Source: an uncultured Flavobacteriales bacterium (GTDB lineage: Bacteria; Bacteroidota; Bacteroidia; Flavobacteriales; Flavobacteriaceae). From it: a stretch of 64,000 bases of DNA. The stretch lies in the NCBI GenBank assembly GCA_913058295.1, contig CAJXRD010000002.1, positions 1 through 64,000 on the forward strand, written 5' to 3'. The notes below the pieces were generated by a model, which was given only the letters and a program-made list of their open reading frames with translations, did no database searches and was not told the DNA's origin. A program made the position numbers and the translations under genes. Positions 55,806 to 64,000 of this stretch are shown here, piece by piece; position 1 is the stretch's first letter, and every line of letters starts with the position of its first letter.

Positions 55806-55922
55806 TTAGCAGATTAATTTATAACCATAAGCTCTAACATTTGCAATCTGAATGTTTTGGTCTTCAATAAGCTTCTTTCTAAGTTTAGAGATAAACACAT
55901 CCATGCTTCTGGCATTAAAAAA
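55806..55922 (-). pseudogene. remnant of a duplicated OmpR-type response regulator (last 38 codons)
   Basis: Read on the minus strand, this stretch encodes FFNARSMDVFISKLRKKL, then IEDQNIQIANVRAYGYKLIC and stop. That equals the C-terminus of the intact regulator at 56005-56700 at 35 of 38 residues. Similarity extends about 25 bases past the stop. Upstream (55923 on) the match ends abruptly and no start codon or receiver domain remains. It is a decayed tandem duplicate, or the scar of a recombination between two copies. The gene-free stretch 55702-56004 holds nothing else. Confidence 0.85.
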
Positions 55923-56004
55923 TTGAGGGTATGCGAAACGGAAATATTTTAAAAAAATAAACAGGAAGAATTATTTTTTTTAAAACAACCACCCCTTCTT
56001 TGGT

Positions 56005-56700
56005 TTAACAGATTAATTTATAACCGTAACCTCTAACATTTACAATCTGAATGTTTTGATCTTCTTTTAGTTTTTTTCTAAGTTTTGAAATAAATACATC
56101 CATACTTCTTGCATTAAAAAAATCATCGTTACCCCAAAGTTTTTTTAAGACAAAGGAGCGATCTAAAACTTCATTTTTGGTATTGTATAAATGAAATAAT
56201 AAATGGGCTTCCCGATGCGTCAACAAAACAGAATTGTTAGTTTGATTAAGTAGTAAAGTTTGCTTTGGAAAATTAAAAGTATAATTTCCTATTTGTATGG
56301 TTTCAGTTTTCTTTTGTAAGGAGGATCGATCCAATAAATTTTTTATCCTAACGATTAATTCTTCCATACTAAAAGGTTTTTTTAAATAATCGTTTCCGCC
56401 TATAGAAAACCCTTCCACAACATCTTGAGTCTGTGATTTTGCGGTTAAAAATATAATTGGGATTTTAGAGTCTTCTTCTCTAATCTCCTTAGCTAAAGTA
56501 AAACCGTCTTTTTTTGGCATCATCACATCGAGCACTAAAAGTTGAGGTTCAGATTCTTTATATTTGGTATATGCTTCCTCTCCATTTGTACAAAGGGTTA
56601 CTAAGAAGTTACGTGTTTCGAGACTTTCTTTAATAATCTGACCTAGTGCTGGTTCATCTTCGGCAAGCAATAATTTTATTTTATTATTTTTTTCTGTCAT
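56005..56700 (-). CDS. rprY: OmpR-family response regulator RprY-like
   Basis: 231 residues. Receiver domain with acidic pocket (LLLAEDEPAL), phosphoacceptor Asp in LLVLDVMMPKKDG, Thr/Lys in IFLTAKSQ and KKPFSMEELI. The winged-helix DNA-binding domain ends in ARSMDVFISKLRKKLKEDQNIQIVNVRGYGYKLIC. Close to Bacteroides RprY as I recall it. The histidine kinase gene lies four bases upstream. The direct-repeat site at 58215-58230 is a candidate for its binding. Confidence 0.9.
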   Translation of the reverse strand: MTEKNNKIKLLLAEDEPALGQIIKESLETRNFLVTLCTNGEEAYTKYKESEPQLLVLDVMMPKKDGFTLAKEIREEDSKIPIIFLTAKSQTQDVVEGFSIGGNDYLKKPFSMEELIVRIKNLLDRSSLQKKTETIQIGNYTFNFPKQTLLLNQTNNSVLLTHREAHLLFHLYNTKNEVLDRSFVLKKLWGNDDFFNARSMDVFISKLRKKLKEDQNIQIVNVRGYGYKLIC

Positions 56701-56703
56701 TGC

Positions 56704-58173
56704 TTATGAATTTGGAATTCTAATTATAAATTCAGTGCCATTTTTAATGTTCACACCAACAGTTCCCCCATGTTTTTCAATAATGTTTTTGGTATAATAC
56801 AAGCCAATTCCGAATCCTTTTATATCGTGAGTATTACCTTTTGGAACTCGGTAAAACTTTTCAAATATTTTTAAAGATTGTTGTTTGCTAAGCTCATTTC
56901 CATGGTCCATTATAGAAATGATTACTTCTAAATTGTTTTTCTGAATTCCAATTTCAATTTTATCTCCTCCATATTTTATAGCATTGTCCAATATGTTGTT
57001 TATTGCATTTTCAAAATGAAATCGATCCATTTTTAGCAGGCATTCCTCCAAATTAGTTGTGAGTGAAATAGTCTTGCCCTGAAGCATATCCTCTTCAATA
57101 TTAGCAGCTTTCTCCAATAGGCTCACCAAATTAATTTTTTCTAAATTAAGATGTAAGCTATTACTATCCAAGGTTGCAGTTTCCAGTAATTTTTCAACCA
57201 TTAGGGTGAGTTTTTCTACTTCAGTCCTAGACATTTCGGCATACTTCTTACTTTTTTCAGAATCGTTTTCTAAATTAAATCTTTGTATTCCTTCTAACGC
57301 GACATTAATAGTAGCTAATGGTGTTTTAAATTCGTGGGTGATATTACTGATAAGATCATTTTTAATTTCAGCCAATTCTTTTTGTTTCTGAATTATTTTA
57401 AGAAGGTATAAAAGACAGATGATAATGCTAGTCACTAATAAGAAAGATAATAATAAACTTGTAGCATTTCTTTTTAAAATAATCAATGTAGTATTGTTAT
57501 AATGCATTAATAAAGCACTTCCATCTAATAAAAAAGAAGATCCAGCAGTCGCTTTTAGTACAGAGGCTTCTATAACATTGGTTCGTAATTCTTGGTCATT
57601 CCCCCAATTACTTTTATAGCTAATTCCGTAGGTAACATTTAAATCTTTTCTCAATAATTCTTGATGAATCAAACTATCCACTTTTTTTAGGGATAAAGAA
57701 TCTTCAGTAAAAGAAACCACAATTTTAGAAGTAAGCATCTCCAAATGTTTGGGGGTACTTCCCTTTTCATCATCTAAATATTTGAGGAGGATCTTAGGTT
57801 TATTACTACTGTATTCAATACTAAGACTATCAGTAGCATTAGATTTTATTAACGAATCACTGCCGTCTTTTATATAAATGTCATTAAATTTTCCCTCTAT
57901 AGAGTCTCTATTTGAAATTAAATCGGCTAGATGAATTCCCATAAAAAGGCTATCAGCTGGGATTGAGTCTGAGATATAAGAAAGCGTGTTTTTCTTTGCC
58001 AATTGCGTATAATAAGAATCTACCGCATTGTCTAAGCTTACCTGTACATCAGTAATGAGTTGCCTTTTTTCAGACAAATAATTCTTATAGCTCCAATAGC
58101 CCTGAACACATAAAGTGAGCAAGATTACAATGCTGATAAAATATAGAATTTGTTTGTATTTGTGGTTATTCAT
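56704..58173 (-). CDS. rprX: sensor histidine kinase RprX-like
   Basis: 489 residues with two membrane spans (ILYFISIVILLTLCVQGYWSY and LLLSFLLVTSIIICLLYLLKII) enclosing a periplasmic sensor of about 210 residues. The H box is SNITHEFKTPLATI, the N box NAINNILDNAIKYG and the G boxes FEKFYRVPKG...GFGIGLYYTKNII. The ATG at 58173 sits one base or less from the predicted transcription start, so its mRNA appears to be leaderless. It controls the RprY regulator encoded next. Confidence 0.92.
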   Translation of the reverse strand: MNNHKYKQILYFISIVILLTLCVQGYWSYKNYLSEKRQLITDVQVSLDNAVDSYYTQLAKKNTLSYISDSIPADSLFMGIHLADLISNRDSIEGKFNDIYIKDGSDSLIKSNATDSLSIEYSSNKPKILLKYLDDEKGSTPKHLEMLTSKIVVSFTEDSLSLKKVDSLIHQELLRKDLNVTYGISYKSNWGNDQELRTNVIEASVLKATAGSSFLLDGSALLMHYNNTTLIILKRNATSLLLSFLLVTSIIICLLYLLKIIQKQKELAEIKNDLISNITHEFKTPLATINVALEGIQRFNLENDSEKSKKYAEMSRTEVEKLTLMVEKLLETATLDSNSLHLNLEKINLVSLLEKAANIEEDMLQGKTISLTTNLEECLLKMDRFHFENAINNILDNAIKYGGDKIEIGIQKNNLEVIISIMDHGNELSKQQSLKIFEKFYRVPKGNTHDIKGFGIGLYYTKNIIEKHGGTVGVNIKNGTEFIIRIPNS

Positions 58174-58177
58174 TTGT

Positions 58178-58210
58178 CAAATGTAGTGACATAATAATAT
58201 CATTACCAAA
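58178..58210 (-). promoter_or_regulatory. rprX promoter (TTTG-N21-TACATTTG)
   Basis: On the minus strand TTTG (58210-58207), a 21-bp spacer and TACATTTG (58185-58178) match the phylum consensus at every position. The predicted start is 58174, one base before the ATG. The direct-repeat operator lies five bases upstream of the -33 box. Confidence 0.7.
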
Positions 58211-58214
58211 TGGC

Positions 58215-58230
58215 TTAACACTAGTTAACA
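58215..58230. promoter_or_regulatory. direct-repeat operator candidate upstream of rprX
   Basis: TTAACA (58215-58220), CTAG, TTAACA (58225-58230): direct repeats with a 10-bp period, the arrangement bound by tandem OmpR-family dimers. An identical 16-bp sequence occurs at 59357-59372. The position just upstream of the -33 box suits activation and suggests autoregulation by RprY. Confidence 0.6.
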
Positions 58231-58266
58231 CTCGAAGTTATACTTTGAAAACGTAATAATATAGTA

Positions 58267-59247
58267 TTACATTTTTGTCATCCACTTAAATTGGTAAGGA
58301 GTATTTGGTATAGTTGCACGTTCAGCTAATCGATACATTCTGTCTGGAAGACGCATTAAATAATCTCTTGCCTTTTCTGCTTCCGAAGTCAGTCCTGTTA
58401 TTTTGTCTATACTCCATTTGTCATTAAGTTTTCGCATAATATCCACATAATCAAAACCAGTATAAACGCCAGAACGTTGTGCTACAATTGAGAATTGATC
58501 GAACAAAGTAGCTTTATCACAAAAAGATTCTCTTAAATTCATCGCAGGCATGATGATTTGTTTTTTCATCATATAGTAATAGGCCAACATCATTTCTGAG
58601 GGGTCTATTTTAAAGATTTCTTCAATAAAATGAGAATAAGCAATATGATGTCTCATTTCGTCCCCTGCAATAATTTTTGACATTTTTGCTAAAGCATTAT
58701 GTCCTTTTTTACGAGCTATTTTAGCTACATTATTGTGAGATACATAAGTGGCTAATTCTTGAAAACTAGTATATACAAAGTTTTTATAAGGATCTGTTGC
58801 CGTCCCAATATCAAAGCCATCTGCAATTAAGTGCTGTGTAGAGATTTCAACTTCTCTCATATTTACTCTTCCAGAAAGGTATAAGTATTTGTTAAGAACA
58901 TCTCCGTGACGATTTTCTTCTGCAGTCCAAGCTCTTACCCATTTTGCCCAGCCATTATCTGGATCTTGTTCTACACCATCTAATGATAATAACCAAGATT
59001 CGTAAGTTGGTAATGCTTCTTCGGTTATGGTATCTCCAACCATACATACCCAAAAATCATCATCTAGCTCTTTACCTAATTCTTGTATTTCTTTTACTTC
59101 TTCAATAAAGTTATCTGCTTGAGGATTTGGTAAAAAATCTGAAGGTTGCCAGATCGTGTCTATATCCATTAAAAACTTATCGACAAATTGATTGATGTTT
59201 TTGCCAAGGGTTTGCATGACTTCTATTCTAATGTTTTCTACAGACAT
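58267..59247 (-). CDS. acyl-ACP desaturase (type 2 fatty acid desaturase)
   Basis: 326 residues, mostly helical, with the two di-iron ligand motifs EENRHGD (after WAKWVRAWTA) and DEMRHHIAY, an earlier glutamate in LPTYESWLLSLDG and MRKLNDKWSIDKI towards the end. It introduces a cis double bond into acyl-ACP, adjusting membrane fluidity. Its promoter region contains the triple TTAACA element at 59357-59382, shared with the divergent GLPGLI gene. Confidence 0.9.
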   Translation of the reverse strand: MSVENIRIEVMQTLGKNINQFVDKFLMDIDTIWQPSDFLPNPQADNFIEEVKEIQELGKELDDDFWVCMVGDTITEEALPTYESWLLSLDGVEQDPDNGWAKWVRAWTAEENRHGDVLNKYLYLSGRVNMREVEISTQHLIADGFDIGTATDPYKNFVYTSFQELATYVSHNNVAKIARKKGHNALAKMSKIIAGDEMRHHIAYSHFIEEIFKIDPSEMMLAYYYMMKKQIIMPAMNLRESFCDKATLFDQFSIVAQRSGVYTGFDYVDIMRKLNDKWSIDKITGLTSEAEKARDYLMRLPDRMYRLAERATIPNTPYQFKWMTKM

Positions 59248-59314
59248 AAGGTGTTCGTTTTATGGGCGCAATATACTTCTATGTACTGAATTAAACTAAC
59301 AATTAATTCATCTA

Positions 59315-59322
59315 CAAACATA
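59315..59322 (-). promoter_or_regulatory. -7 box of the acyl-ACP desaturase gene
   Basis: On the minus strand TATGTTTG is an exact TAnnTTTG. Transcription would start near 59311, about 64 bases before the ATG. No strong -33 box. The TTAACA repeats begin 34 bases upstream. Confidence 0.45.
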
Positions 59323-59356
59323 ATAAATTATAGCTAAATGTAATGATAAATAGATG

Positions 59357-59382
59357 TTAACACTAGTTAACAGTCGTTAACC
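59357..59382. promoter_or_regulatory. triple direct-repeat operator candidate between desaturase and GLPGLI genes
   Basis: TTAACA (59357-59362), TTAACA (59367-59372) and TTAACC (59377-59382), spaced by CTAG and GTCG, repeat every 10 bp. The first 16 bases are identical to the element in front of rprX. The third unit falls where the -33 box of the GLPGLI promoter should be, as in activator-dependent PhoB/OmpR-type promoters. Confidence 0.62.
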
Positions 59383-59403: not shown

Positions 59404-59411
59404 CAATTTTG
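59404..59411 (+). promoter_or_regulatory. -7 box of the first GLPGLI gene
   Basis: CAATTTTG differs from TAnnTTTG at one position (C for T). There is no -33 TTG. The third TTAACC repeat lies there instead. Transcription would start near 59415, 24 bases before ATG 59439. Confidence 0.45.
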
Positions 59412-59438: not shown

Positions 59439-60290
59439 ATGAAAATTTTACTTTACGTTAGTTTGACACTTACTTTATTTTTTACATCCATGTTATCTGC
59501 TCAAGATTTTAAGGGAATCGCAACTTACAAATCTCAAAGAAAAATGAATATAGAAATGGATAGCACGCAAATGAATGGCGATATGCATAAACAAATGATG
59601 GCAATGCTTAAAAAACAATTTCAGAAAGAATATACTTTAAAATTTAATGCAGAGGAATCTTTGTATAAAGAAGTTGAAAATTTAGATAAGCCTGATGGAA
59701 TGGGTTCTGGAGGAATGCAAATAGTTGTAGCTGGAAATGGGGACGGAGACTTGCTTTATAAGAATATTAAAGAGAACAGAATTGCGAATCAAAGTGATTT
59801 ATTTGGAAAAATATTTCTGATAAAAGATAGCCTAGAACAACCAGAATGGAAGCTGGAAAAAGAAACAAAAAATATAGGGGAATACACTTGTTTTAAAGCA
59901 ACATATACACGCATGTCTACCATGCCTTCTACAATGACTATGAGAGTAAACTCAGAGGAAGAGCCAGAAAATACAGAGCCAGAAGAGTTTGAACAAACTG
60001 TGACAGCTTGGTATACTCTTCAGATTCCAGTTAAACATGGGCCAGGAAATTATAGTGGATTACCAGGATTGATCTTAGAAGTGAATGATGGTAGTGAATC
60101 TATATTATGTAGTAAGATCGTTTTAAATCCTAATAATGGGGTAAATATAGAAGAGCCTAAAAAAGGAAAAATAGTTACACAGGAAAAGTTTGACTCTATC
60201 ATGGAAAAGAAAATGAGAGAAATGGATGAACAGAGAAATTCTGGAAGACATGACGATGGCAATAGTATGGAGATCCGAATTGGAGGATAA
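59439..60290 (+). CDS. GLPGLI family secreted protein, copy 1
   Basis: 283 residues. Signal peptide MKILLYVSLTLTLFFTSMLSAQ, then FKGIATYKSQRKM, the EYTLKFNAEESLYKEVE block and the family signature GPGNYSGLPGLILEVNDG near residue 205. The C-terminus is charged and Met-rich. GLPGLI proteins are exported, of unknown function, and usually stand next to TonB-type receptors with a carboxypeptidase-regulatory domain, as here. A paralogue follows after 55 bases. Probably controlled by the TTAACA element. Confidence 0.93.
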   Translation: MKILLYVSLTLTLFFTSMLSAQDFKGIATYKSQRKMNIEMDSTQMNGDMHKQMMAMLKKQFQKEYTLKFNAEESLYKEVENLDKPDGMGSGGMQIVVAGNGDGDLLYKNIKENRIANQSDLFGKIFLIKDSLEQPEWKLEKETKNIGEYTCFKATYTRMSTMPSTMTMRVNSEEEPENTEPEEFEQTVTAWYTLQIPVKHGPGNYSGLPGLILEVNDGSESILCSKIVLNPNNGVNIEEPKKGKIVTQEKFDSIMEKKMREMDEQRNSGRHDDGNSMEIRIGG

Positions 60291-60345: not shown

Positions 60346-61218
60346 ATGAAAACATTAAGCACTCTAATTTTTATAATGCTATCCTTAATTTCTTATGCAC
60401 AGGATGTCATTGGTCAAGCATTTTACGAATCTAAAACAATAGTGAAGACAGGTGAAATAGGCAGAAAAGATATGGATGAAAATATGCGAAAAATGATTGC
60501 CGAGCGTATGAAAGACCATCTTGAAAAGACCTATGTACTAACTTTTAATGAAGATGAATCTATATATAAAGAAGAAGAAAAACTAGAAACGGAATCTAAA
60601 GGTGGGATGATGAATATAATGATTGGAAGTTTTTCACCAGGTATTCAATATAAAAACCTTAAAACCAATCAGATTTTAGAAGAACGAGAATTTTATGGTA
60701 AACAATTTTTAATTCAGGATACCATAACCAATTTAGAATGGACTTTAGAAAAAGAGTCTAAACAAATTGGACAGTATATTGTTTTCAAAGCTACTGCTTT
60801 AAAAAGTATAGATGATAATGATATGAGTATGGCAAGACGAAGGGATGCTGCTAAAGAAAAAGAAGAGGTTGTAAAAGACAGCACAAAAACGGATGCTCCT
60901 TTAAATAATGTTAAAGTGCCAAAAGAAATGATAGTTACTGCTTGGTACACTCCCCAAATTCCTATAAATAATGGGCCTGGAGAGTATTCAGGCTTACCAG
61001 GATTAATACTAGAATTAAACTTTTATAGAACAAGAATTCTTTGTTCAAAAATCGTGATGAATCCAAAGGAAACAACTGCAATTAAAGCTCCAAAAAAAGG
61101 AAAAGAAGTGAATAGAGCAGAATACAATAAAATAGTAAAAGTAAAAATAAAAGAAATGCGCGAAAATAATAAAGGTAGGGATAGAAAAGGAGATGCGCAT
61201 TTTAGAGGAGGGAATTAA
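60346..61218 (+). CDS. GLPGLI family secreted protein, copy 2
   Basis: 290 residues, paralogous to copy 1 along its whole length. Signal peptide MKTLSTLIFIMLSLISYAQ, TYVLTFNEDESIYKEEEKL, KQFLIQDTITNLEWTLEKESKQIGQYIVFKAT and the signature GPGEYSGLPGLILELNFY. An insert of lysine/glutamate-rich sequence (ARRRDAAKEKEEVVKDSTKTD) precedes the signature. Strand and spacing suggest one operon with copy 1 and the receptor gene at 61283. Confidence 0.93.
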   Translation: MKTLSTLIFIMLSLISYAQDVIGQAFYESKTIVKTGEIGRKDMDENMRKMIAERMKDHLEKTYVLTFNEDESIYKEEEKLETESKGGMMNIMIGSFSPGIQYKNLKTNQILEEREFYGKQFLIQDTITNLEWTLEKESKQIGQYIVFKATALKSIDDNDMSMARRRDAAKEKEEVVKDSTKTDAPLNNVKVPKEMIVTAWYTPQIPINNGPGEYSGLPGLILELNFYRTRILCSKIVMNPKETTAIKAPKKGKEVNRAEYNKIVKVKIKEMRENNKGRDRKGDAHFRGGN

Positions 61219-61282: not shown

Positions 61283-64000
61283 ATGTATAAATTTAGTTTA
61301 GCAATCCTATTGCTTTTTTCCTTGTCGGTTTCGGCTCAAAGTATAAAAGTGAGAGGTGCAATTAACGACAGTATTGGCGAGCCTTTAGAACTATCTAATG
61401 TAATAGCAACAGTTAAGGAAACTGGAACTATTGAGTCTTATGGAATTACAAATTATGAAGGGCGATTTCAATTGGACTTGCCAGTAAATAACACCTATAT
61501 TTTAACTGCAAGTTATTTGGGTTACGAAACCATAGCAAAAGAATTGGCCGTTCCTGAAAATGCAACTGATTTAGATTTAAATTTTGTTTTAAATTCTATG
61601 GCTTCAGAGTTAGATGGTGTAGAGTTAATATATGAAATGCCAGTTGTAGTTAAAGGAGATACTATTGTTTATAATGCAGATTCTTTTACCAATGGCTCCG
61701 AAAGAAAACTAGGGGATGTAATGAAAAAACTTCCAGGAGTTGAAATTAATGAGGATGGTGAAATTGAAGTGGAAGGGAAAACCGTAAATAAAGTGATGGT
61801 AGAAGGGAAGGATTTCTTTGATGGAGATTCAAAGTTGGCAGTTGAAAATATTCCAGCGGATGCTATAGATAAGATTGAAGTACTTCGTAATTACAATGAA
61901 GTAGACCAAATGCGAGGATTGGGAAATGACGAAGACAATATTGCAATAAACATAAAATTAAAAGAAGGGAAAAAGAATTTTTGGTTTGGTGAGGCTACCG
62001 CAGGAATAGGAATTGGAGATGATGAAAGCAGGTATTTAGTGCATCCAAAATTATTTTATTATAGTCCGAAATACAGTATAAATTTAATTACAGATTTTAA
62101 TAATATTGGGGAAGTGCCATTTACTTTTAGAGACTATTTTAAATTTACCGGAGGCTTTAGAAATTTTAATAGAGGTGGAGGAACTAATTTTAATGTCAGT
62201 CAAGGGGATCTAGGTTTTGCAATGATGCAAAACGATAGAGCCAATGAAATTGAAACAAATTTCGTGGCTGGAAATTTTAGTTGGGAGATTTCAAAACAAT
62301 GGGATTTAAGTGGATTTGCAATTCTTTCAGATAATAAGACCAATATGCTTACAAATTCTCTTCGTAGTTATGTGGTTTCAGAAGCACAAGAAACCACCAA
62401 GAGTAATAATGACCAACGAACACAGTTAGGGATGTTGAAATTGAGTAGTGTGTATAAACCTAATTCTAATTTTCAGTTAGATTATGATGCACTCTTTAAA
62501 ACTTCAAAACAAACAGAAGATTCAGAAACGATTTCATTAGTAGATGAGGTTACGAATAATATTGAAGAGGAAAAAGAAAGCAAACCTACTTCTATCAATC
62601 AAAATGCAAACCTATATTATACCGCAAATGAGGATAATATTATAGCAGGTCAGGTTCAACATTTATATCAAAATGAAGATCCTTTTTACAATGCTATAGT
62701 AGATTTACTGCCCTTTAATGGGATTATTCCAGTAGACGAAGATCAAGATCGTTTCAATATCAATCAGGAAAAGAATATTGTTACCAATAAGTTGGATGCA
62801 AAAGTGGATTATTATCATGTAATTAATAAAAAGAGTAATATTAATTTTACTTTAGGAAGTACTTTGAGCAAGCAACAATTTGATTCCAATATCTTTCAGT
62901 TATTAGATAATGAGGAGCGTATCGATTTTACAGATGCTTTACCAGATAATAACGGGGATGTATATTCACTAACAAACGATGTACAATATAATTTTACCGA
63001 CTTGTTTTTAGGGGTACATTATAAATTTAAAGCTGGAAAATTTACCATTACACCAGGGCTAAGTTTGCATAATTATATATTAAAAAATGAGCAGTTTGGA
63101 ACTGCGATATCTCAAAACGACTGGAATGTATTGCCAGATGTAAATGTAGTTTTGGAACTAAAAAACAGCGAAAACTTACGATTTAATTATTCCATTTCTT
63201 CGGAATATACAGATATAAATAATTATGCAGAAGCTTATGTTTTTAGCGATTATAATAGAATGTTTCGAGGAAATAGAAGTCTTGAAAATTCATTAGCTCA
63301 TAATTATAATCTAAATTATTTCAGTTATAATATGTTTAATTATACCAATGTTAATGCATCTTTAAACTATTCAAGACGATTGGAATCTGTGAAGTATAAT
63401 TCCTTATTAGTAGATATAAATCAAGTAAGTACTCCTATAAATATGGACAGTAATTTTCCAGACGAAACCTTTTCTGGCTATGGAGAATTTAGCAAGCGTG
63501 TTAAGAAGCTTCAATTCAATGCAAATGCAAGAATAAGTTATAGTACAACCTTTAATAATATTAATACTACAGTTATTGAAAGCACTAGTTTTATACAAAA
63601 CTATAAAGTAAGTGTGCGTTCAAATTTTAGAGATTGGCCTAATTTTGAAATTGGGTACAATGCTATCATCAACGATTATGATAATGGAGGTTTGCAAGAA
63701 ACGTACTTCACCAATAGTCCCTTTGCCAATGTCGATATGAAGTTTCTAAAGCATTTTACTTTAACTGCAGATTGGAATTTATACAATTACAGTAATGAAT
63801 CTAATACTGTAGAAAACCAATACTCCTTTTTAGATGCTAATCTGTATTTCAGAAAAGGAGATAGTCCTTGGGAATTTAAAATACAAGCCACGAATATTTT
63901 AAATACAGAGTTTACAAATTCTGATAGTTTTAGCGATGAATATAACACTACAACTCAATATTTTGTGCTTCCTCGTATTGTAATGTTGATGGTGAAATAC
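61283..64000 (+). CDS. outer-membrane beta-barrel receptor with CarboxypepD-reg and TonB plug domains (cut by window end)
   Basis: ATG 61283, open to the last base (906 codons seen, 3' end missing). Signal peptide MYKFSLAILLLFSLSVSAQ. A carboxypeptidase-regulatory-like sandwich follows at about 20-105 (IKVRGAINDSIGEPLELSNVIATVKETG...GRFQLDL). A plug-like part comes next (VVKGDTIVYNADSFTNGSERKLGDVMKKLPGVEINEDGEIEVEGKTVNKVMVEGKDFFDGD), then a long beta barrel. The form is that of TonB-dependent receptor-like proteins of the OMP_b-brl_3 type that accompany GLPGLI genes. Substrate unknown. Confidence 0.9.
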   Translation, partial: MYKFSLAILLLFSLSVSAQSIKVRGAINDSIGEPLELSNVIATVKETGTIESYGITNYEGRFQLDLPVNNTYILTASYLGYETIAKELAVPENATDLDLNFVLNSMASELDGVELIYEMPVVVKGDTIVYNADSFTNGSERKLGDVMKKLPGVEINEDGEIEVEGKTVNKVMVEGKDFFDGDSKLAVENIPADAIDKIEVLRNYNEVDQMRGLGNDEDNIAINIKLKEGKKNFWFGEATAGIGIGDDESRYLVHPKLFYYSPKYSINLITDFNNIGEVPFTFRDYFKFTGGFRNFNRGGGTNFNVSQGDLGFAMMQNDRANEIETNFVAGNFSWEISKQWDLSGFAILSDNKTNMLTNSLRSYVVSEAQETTKSNNDQRTQLGMLKLSSVYKPNSNFQLDYDALFKTSKQTEDSETISLVDEVTNNIEEEKESKPTSINQNANLYYTANEDNIIAGQVQHLYQNEDPFYNAIVDLLPFNGIIPVDEDQDRFNINQEKNIVTNKLDAKVDYYHVINKKSNINFTLGSTLSKQQFDSNIFQLLDNEERIDFTDALPDNNGDVYSLTNDVQYNFTDLFLGVHYKFKAGKFTITPGLSLHNYILKNEQFGTAISQNDWNVLPDVNVVLELKNSENLRFNYSISSEYTDINNYAEAYVFSDYNRMFRGNRSLENSLAHNYNLNYFSYNMFNYTNVNASLNYSRRLESVKYNSLLVDINQVSTPINMDSNFPDETFSGYGEFSKRVKKLQFNANARISYSTTFNNINTTVIESTSFIQNYKVSVRSNFRDWPNFEIGYNAIINDYDNGGLQETYFTNSPFANVDMKFLKHFTLTADWNLYNYSNESNTVENQYSFLDANLYFRKGDSPWEFKIQATNILNTEFTNSDSFSDEYNTTTQYFVLPRIVMLMVKY

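Follow-up and report, generated by a model that had tools for sequence, protein, structure and literature searches.

A tandem array of three TTAAC units, set 10 bp apart between two divergent promoters, is very probably the operator of the two-component system encoded beside it, a paralogue of RprXY that would bind the array, activate the divergent GLPGLI/receptor operon, regulate its own operon and answer to an envelope signal. We examined a 64-kb stretch of DNA (64,000 nucleotides, here called the window) from an uncultured Flavobacteriales bacterium, together with the corresponding loci of its relatives. The operator prediction, which comes from this comparison, is strong and well supported, and tandem-repeat operators are already known as a kind. 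It assigns a precise predicted operator and a set of candidate targets to an uncharacterised two-component system, along with a natural series of deletions. The features concerned are the following.

56005-56700, minus strand: response regulator with receiver and Trans_reg_C domains, OmpR/PhoB type (PF00072 100.9 bits, PF00486 65.5 bits)
56704-58173, minus strand: sensor histidine kinase of 489 amino acids, with HisKA and HATPase_c domains
58178-58185, minus strand: kinase -7 box TACATTTG, ending 4 bp ahead of the ATG, at 29 bp from the operator
58206-58210, minus strand: kinase -33-like box TTTGG, read from the sequence
58215-58230, plus strand: operator copy on the kinase side, with two TTAAC units (58215, 58225), the third unit lost
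58267-59247, minus strand: acyl-ACP desaturase, inserted in the ancestral shared control region (PF03405 434.7 bits, above the gathering cut-off of 22.7)
59357-59382, plus strand: operator copy on the GLPGLI side, with three TTAAC units (59357, 59367, 59377)
59404-59411, plus strand: -7 box of the GLPGLI operon, CAATTTTG, 22 bp after the third unit
59439-60290, plus strand: GLPGLI protein 1 (TIGR01200 205.5 bits, above the cut-off of 50)
60346-61218, plus strand: GLPGLI protein 2 (TIGR01200 162.3 bits, above the cut-off of 50)
61283-64000, plus strand: outer-membrane receptor-like beta-barrel (CarbopepD_reg_2 and OMP_b-brl_3 in Pfam), continuing past the window end

The 16-mer TTAACACTAGTTAACA occurs twice in the window, at 58215-58230 and 59357-59372 (both plus strand), and a third unit, TTAACC at 59377-59382, follows the second copy in the same 10-bp register; the arrangement described in an earlier note on this DNA was thereby confirmed. 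The kinase-side copy lies upstream of the minus-strand TTTGG and TACATTTG boxes of the kinase, while on the GLPGLI side the third unit precedes CAATTTTG at the position expected for a -33 box. This is the layout of an OmpR/PhoB-type tandem-repeat operator, in which direct repeats recur every 10-11 bp or so close to a promoter. Operators of this family, such as those of PhoB, CpxR and ArcA, consist of direct repeats, two or three in number and spaced by roughly a helical turn, placed upstream of the promoter or overlapping it, and the PhoP box of Bacillus is TTAACA with spacers of about 5 bp. The window-type triple differs from these in standing between two divergent promoters at fixed distances, with -7 boxes of the Bacteroidetes type, and no prior description of a triple TTAAC operator was found in the open-licence literature, where GLPGLI is mentioned in 3 papers.

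The bare repeat is not unusual in number. Within the window, TTAACACTAGTTAACA at up to one mismatch gave 4 matches against 1.95 expected, a count reached by 10 of 100 shuffles and not significant taken alone. Genome-wide, the double at up to one mismatch showed no excess (29 + 32 matches against 35 + 37 for the reversed control) and was exact at 6 places; TTAACA-N4-TTAACA is therefore unusable as a marker of the regulon. The triple at up to one mismatch, by contrast, was confined to a single place in the 3.07-Mb genome, matched on both strands since GTTAAC is palindromic, and a genome-wide search with the consensus operator at up to three mismatches returned the window locus only. The unusual features are thus the triple, its consensus form and, above all, its conservation in relatives.

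Both domains of the response regulator score above their gathering cut-offs, which places it in the OmpR/PhoB family. Its best-scoring NCBIfam model is that of RprY from the RprXY system of Bacteroidales (NF051850, an equivalog model), with which it shares the receiver and winged-helix architecture; at 268.9 bits, however, it falls short of the curated cut-off of 370, as do two of its clade mates (264.8 and 262.4 bits). The same genome encodes a second pair on contig C15, here called RprXY-type, whose regulator is 45% identical to that of the window and somewhat nearer RprY (279.5 bits, likewise below the 370 cut-off). In a tree of 140 regulators, 103 orthologue rows fell on one side of a single branch (SH-aLRT 95), apart from the RprY-type paralogues sampled; this was a quick LG+G4 tree with some long branches flagged, and the orthologue rows had been picked at at least 56% identity. 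The score below the cut-off and the separate clade indicate that the window pair is a paralogous system relative to RprXY, and the names RprX and RprY given to it previously are not supported. The recognition helix RSMDV[FY]I[TS]KLRKKL fits all eight commonest variants, carried by 82 of the 103 regulators of the clade. The predicted structure of the kinase was of low quality (pTM 0.38). The terms 'motif', 'consensus' and 'binding site' are absent from the main text of two papers on Porphyromonas RprY (PMC6032018, PMC3646045), so that no RprY motif is available for comparison. A remnant second copy of the regulator C-terminus sits directly downstream of the regulator gene in the window (55809-55931, minus strand; 85% identical to residues 191-231), and a similar partial copy is present in locus L077.

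The distribution of the system was surveyed in 149 Flavobacteriaceae genomes, one per genus, of which 51 hold an orthologous kinase according to our own score cut, which falls in the interval from 206.7 to 172.4 bits. In the order as a whole, 118 genomes were sampled; kinase matches at E <= 1e-50 were obtained in 10, 7 of them in Flavobacteriaceae, and full-length orthologues also occur outside this family among named loci, for example in Roseivirga, Reichenbachiella and Algoriphagus. Loci were fetched for 49 of the 51 genomes (all but the window and G062). The regulator adjoins the kinase in all 49, GLPGLI genes diverge from the kinase in 46, at distances of 110-981 bp, and 44 of the fetched stretches contain a homologue of the window receptor. 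Against this conserved neighbourhood the window stands out, its kinase-GLPGLI gap measuring 1265 bp because the desaturase sits inside it. Three loci (L106, L109 and L111) keep the operator with no divergent GLPGLI gene alongside. In many relatives whose gap measures about 500 bp (L069, L070, L073, L074, L078, L080-L082, L088, L092 and others), the first gene of the GLPGLI operon encodes, by eye, a small protein of secreted appearance, some 110-120 amino acids long; the one scanned, from L170, had no Pfam match above cut-off.

The earlier note had staked its proposal in part on conservation of the repeats upstream of kinase orthologues, and they proved to be conserved in place. Eighty named loci were added to the family set, 49 with orthologous kinases and 47 of these with sufficient upstream DNA; the triple lies within 1.5 kb in 45 of the 47, the other two (L223 and L236) having two exact units. 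Pooling gave 98 loci, 95 of them unique and 93 with at least 100 bp of upstream DNA. With no preselection for the motif, three exact TTAAC units in the 10-bp register, the first of them at a distance of 34-59 bp from the start codon of the kinase, were present in 82 of these 93 promoters; two units were found in 7, one in 1 and none in 3 (L072, L096 and L103), where the triple is present farther out. The control region at 130-400 bp of the same sequences held three units in 1 and two in 1 at the best register, the former probably being the displaced operator of L072 itself. Among 31 named loci below the orthologue line, 3 carry a triple with other spacers. Below the same line, L246, from Bacteroidales and divergent to GLPGLI, has a consensus-like double. 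In three further kinases of distant Bacteroidota divergent to GLPGLI (L240, L245 and L259), TTAACC stands at 0 and 10, followed by a third TTAAC at 31 bp, by eye a variant operator with one extra turn.

Spacing was analysed in the 83 of 95 unique promoters with a close triple, the other 12 being set aside. Their consensus is [GC]TTAACAC[TA]CG-TTAACACTNG-TTAAC, in which the units are invariant by construction; the distances to the promoters are not so constrained. A TAnnTTTG box was found on the kinase side in 73 promoters and lies 27-29 bp from the operator in every one of them. In 65 of the 73 it ends 4 bp before the ATG, from which the kinase transcript is predicted to be possibly leaderless. 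Towards GLPGLI, TTTG occurs at one fixed spacing in 81-82 of the 83 anchored promoters, and the strict form YAnnTTTG is exactly 22 bp after the third unit in 59, elsewhere in 4 and missing from 20. The window, with TACATTTG at 29 bp and CAATTTTG at 22 bp, fits both spacings.

Presence of the operator was then compared with presence of the pair. The exact triple occurs in 59 of the 149 genomes, of which 47 belong to the 51 that have the pair and 12 to the 98 that lack it. In 46 of the former it lies within 2.5 kb upstream of the kinase, and in G062 it is on a separate contig (L170); in the 12 pairless genomes the matches are scattered and of low consensus, and the reversed control of the bare triple gave 10 matches in 8 of 149 genomes. 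A composite pattern (operator, 22 bp, YAnnTTTG) at up to two mismatches was found in 49 of 51 genomes with the pair, the exceptions being G002 and G010, against 2 of 98 without it (Fisher p 2e-34, a value that ignores shared ancestry), and its reversed control had no match in the 149 genomes. A chance coincidence in A+T-rich DNA, to which the unremarkable number of one-mismatch doubles in the window genome might point, has next to no probability and is refuted by the conservation in 82 of 93 promoters together with the empty composite control.

Some genomes with the pair carry extra triples. These lie before an OMP_b-brl_3 receptor (L164), aspartyl-protease-like proteins (L162, L167), an AhpC/TSA-thioredoxin-like protein (L166), two similar small secreted proteins (L161, L165) and a weakly LTXXQ-like protein (L168), and L161, L164, L165, L166 and L167 match the composite pattern with one mismatch each. 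The genes behind them point to the envelope. Four other extra matches (L163, L169, L171 and L172) are probably due to chance.

A parallel is offered by PhoPR of Riemerella anatipestifer (RAYM_RS09735/RS09740), which combines an OmpR-type regulator, a TTTAACA half-site and binding of the regulator ahead of its own genes. According to PMC9603813, TTTAACA represents the most conserved bases of the PhoP motif, PhoP binds upstream of its own operon, phoPR, and the unphosphorylated form bound as well in vitro. The 50 direct targets given there include, as do the candidate targets here, GLPGLI, TonB-receptor and outer-membrane beta-barrel genes; of the five GLPGLI genes, three were activated and two repressed. 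The same study records 583 DAP-seq peaks, whereas the consensus operator occurs at one locus in the window genome. Orthology of the window pair with PhoPR was not borne out at the published qPCR primer sites, as given in PMC5399024. In stretches of 6-7 residues, the Riemerella primers encode GMGMEP, KGQGLG and GYQLGAD, against DHGNELS, KGFGIG and GFSIGGND in the window pair and DKGIGMTK, KGHGLG and GYKVGADD in the RprXY-type pair, which is the better fit; neither pair fits a fourth primer (GEEGLK) better. On these short matches Riemerella PhoPR looks RprXY-type, and it therefore lends weight to the half-site and to the connection with GLPGLI but not to the window system as such. The passages of PMC10197871 and PMC8757827 consulted hold nothing on the window pair, the latter reporting two GLPGLI genes changed in a mutant of another regulator.

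These likenesses raise the alternative that the operator is bound mainly by an RprY-type paralogue encoded elsewhere in the genome and not by the adjacent regulator. Riemerella PhoP, RprXY-type by its short primer translations, prefers TTTAACA; the recognition helices are near-identical (commonest RSMDVFITKLRKKL against RSMDVYIAKLRKYL); and TTAAC-N5-TTAAC was seen by eye upstream of five RprX-type kinases of Cyclobacteriaceae (L239, L241, L243, L250 and L251). Kinase matches, however, were obtained in all 149 genomes, those below the cut being mostly RprX-like and of about 515-536 amino acids among the matches listed. The paralogue is thus widespread, yet the composite pattern follows the adjacent pair, which counts against the paralogue as the binder and makes this alternative distinctly unlikely. 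We retain the adjacent regulator as the probable principal binder; since its half-site resembles that of the paralogue, some cross-binding may occur. The double of the Cyclobacteriaceae kinases lies about 40 bp from the likely start codon with a -7-like box adjoining, a layout much like that of the window kinase.

Instead of the two separate RprY sites assumed in the earlier note, the two copies in the window are best read as one ancestral shared operator split by the inserted desaturase gene. A survey of the genus gave kinase matches at E <= 1e-60 in 8 of 19 genomes. Two of the loci (L186, L189) have no large insert in the gap; in the window (G000), G276 (L188) and G274 (L185) the desaturase stands between a two-unit and a three-unit operator copy, and in L184 a different open reading frame, alpha/beta-hydrolase-like by eye, stands between copies of the same kind. 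L183 begins like the split loci and ends with its contig, and in L182 three units remain next to the kinase, other open reading frames lying beyond. Outside the genus, two operators in an enlarged gap were found in L075 and L110. Apart from L182 and the degenerate L110, split operators have two units on the kinase side and three on the GLPGLI side, a natural deletion experiment which suggests that the kinase promoter needs just the two proximal units. The first spacer is common to the left and right copies of one genome (ACTAG both in the window and in L188, and ACACG in L185) although spacers vary from genome to genome, as by concerted change or co-evolution with the regulator; such sharing is absent in L075 and L110.

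The identical 16-mers might also be nothing but a target-site duplication left by the insertion, given that they flank the inserted gene in direct orientation and that the different insert of L184 is also flanked, by TTAACACACGTTAAC. The triple, however, keeps its position in 82 of 93 promoters, none of which contains the desaturase other than those of the genus and L190. A target-site duplication as the sole explanation is very improbable and is refuted by the desaturase-free promoters carrying the triple; a duplication may have occurred, in which case it copied an operator already in place.

The shared regulon proposed earlier stands as regards a tandem operator, conserved in place and spacing, common to the two-component and GLPGLI/receptor operons, but it loses the desaturase, which is probably a bystander. 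Among the 49 loci from other genomes of the family, no gap contains the desaturase; besides the three genomes of the genus, it occupies the gap in the named locus L190. It or a relative also occurs away from the pair within the genus. No 10-bp TTAAC pair was present in the 300 bp upstream of such unlinked desaturases, whether of 88-90% identity (L301, L303, L308) or of about 70% (L304-L307). The gene retains its own TTCAGT...TATATTGC-like stretch (by eye), and in the window its -7-like box (59315-59322) is 34 bp from the operator, off the 27-29 bp of the kinases. In L308 (G272) the desaturase has a C-terminal piece of the regulator (81% identical) next to it, at 1322-1495, and no kinase match was obtained at E <= 1e-60, as if the two-component system had been lost in that genus mate.

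With a single shared operator, a mechanism may be proposed from the arrangement of sites. The regulator, its activity set by phosphorylation, would bind head-to-tail on TTAAC half-sites 10 bp apart, along one face of the DNA. The third unit would fill the missing -33 position of the GLPGLI operon, which makes activation by direct contact with RNA polymerase the most likely outcome, and the same operator, lying just upstream of the kinase promoter, would serve autoregulation in the other direction. The insertion of the desaturase into the shared region in this genus would have left an operator copy on each side, probably because both promoters need one. That the bound regulator instead represses the GLPGLI operon, its own operon being activated or repressed, is fairly unlikely. 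The third unit does overlap the GLPGLI -33 position, and two GLPGLI genes are repressed by the RprY-type regulator in the Riemerella study (PMC9603813); the three others, however, are activated in the same source. In addition, the GLPGLI promoters show no other -33-like conservation, with low information between +25 and +46. Absence of -33 conservation is typical of activator-dependent promoters, and activation of the GLPGLI operon is the outcome we prefer.

The signal is most likely one from the envelope, the GLPGLI operon encoding an OMP_b-brl_3 receptor and proteins of predicted LolA/RseB-like fold. The GLPGLI structure model (mean pLDDT 72, pTM 0.66, the five models being uneven) matched the N-terminal domain of PNGase F-II with Z 16-17 and LolA, RseB, MucB and VioE with Z of about 9-11. 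The predicted fold is thus of a lipid- or lipoprotein-handling or stress-sensing type; a shared fold shows no function.

The GLPGLI/receptor operon is also kept by genomes that have no orthologous pair, in which the regulator appears to have been swapped. On balance we think it likely that one operon (GLPGLI plus OMP_b-brl_3 receptor) has passed, within one family, between the triple-TTAAC two-component system and an ECF sigma factor acting at AAC-N17-GTC. If so, two kinds of envelope regulator would control the same outer-membrane operon in different genera of one family. The GLPGLI proteins would be tied to envelope regulation by two promoter types as well as by the LolA/RseB-like predicted fold, and the apparent swap between an ECF-type promoter and an operator for a response regulator would open the rewiring of regulation in Bacteroidota to direct tests in environmental strains that are in culture. 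A receptor homologue at E <= 1e-100 is present in all 51 genomes that carry the pair and in 59 of the 98 that lack it. Upstream DNA was fetched for 54 of these 59, first 15 and then 39, of which 2 were unusable and 37 were left. GLPGLI genes precede the receptor in all of the first 15 stretches, where no 10-bp TTAAC pair was found in 6.5 kb (0/15); a TTAAC pair was present in 1 of the next 37 and missing from the other 36. An AAC...GTC element was spotted by eye in the first 15 and then tested on the next 37; AAC...GTC at a fixed spacing resembles ECF-sigma promoters. Within 160 bp of the first GLPGLI gene, AAC-N15-17-GTC occurs in 13 of the first 15; letter-shuffled sequences gave 1.0, and 5 of 93 operator gaps contain it. 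In the test set, AAC-N17-GTC was found in 22 of 37, whereas the other spacings from 12 to 23 gave 0-1 each and shuffled sequences 0.54. Pooled (L309-L362), it is present in 35 of 52 pairless stretches and missing from 17, against 3 of 93 operator gaps (p 2e-17, a value that ignores shared ancestry). The strict form G[TA]AAC-CGTC accounts for just 9 of the 52, and AAC-N17-GTC lies -3 to 107 bp from the approximate start codon.
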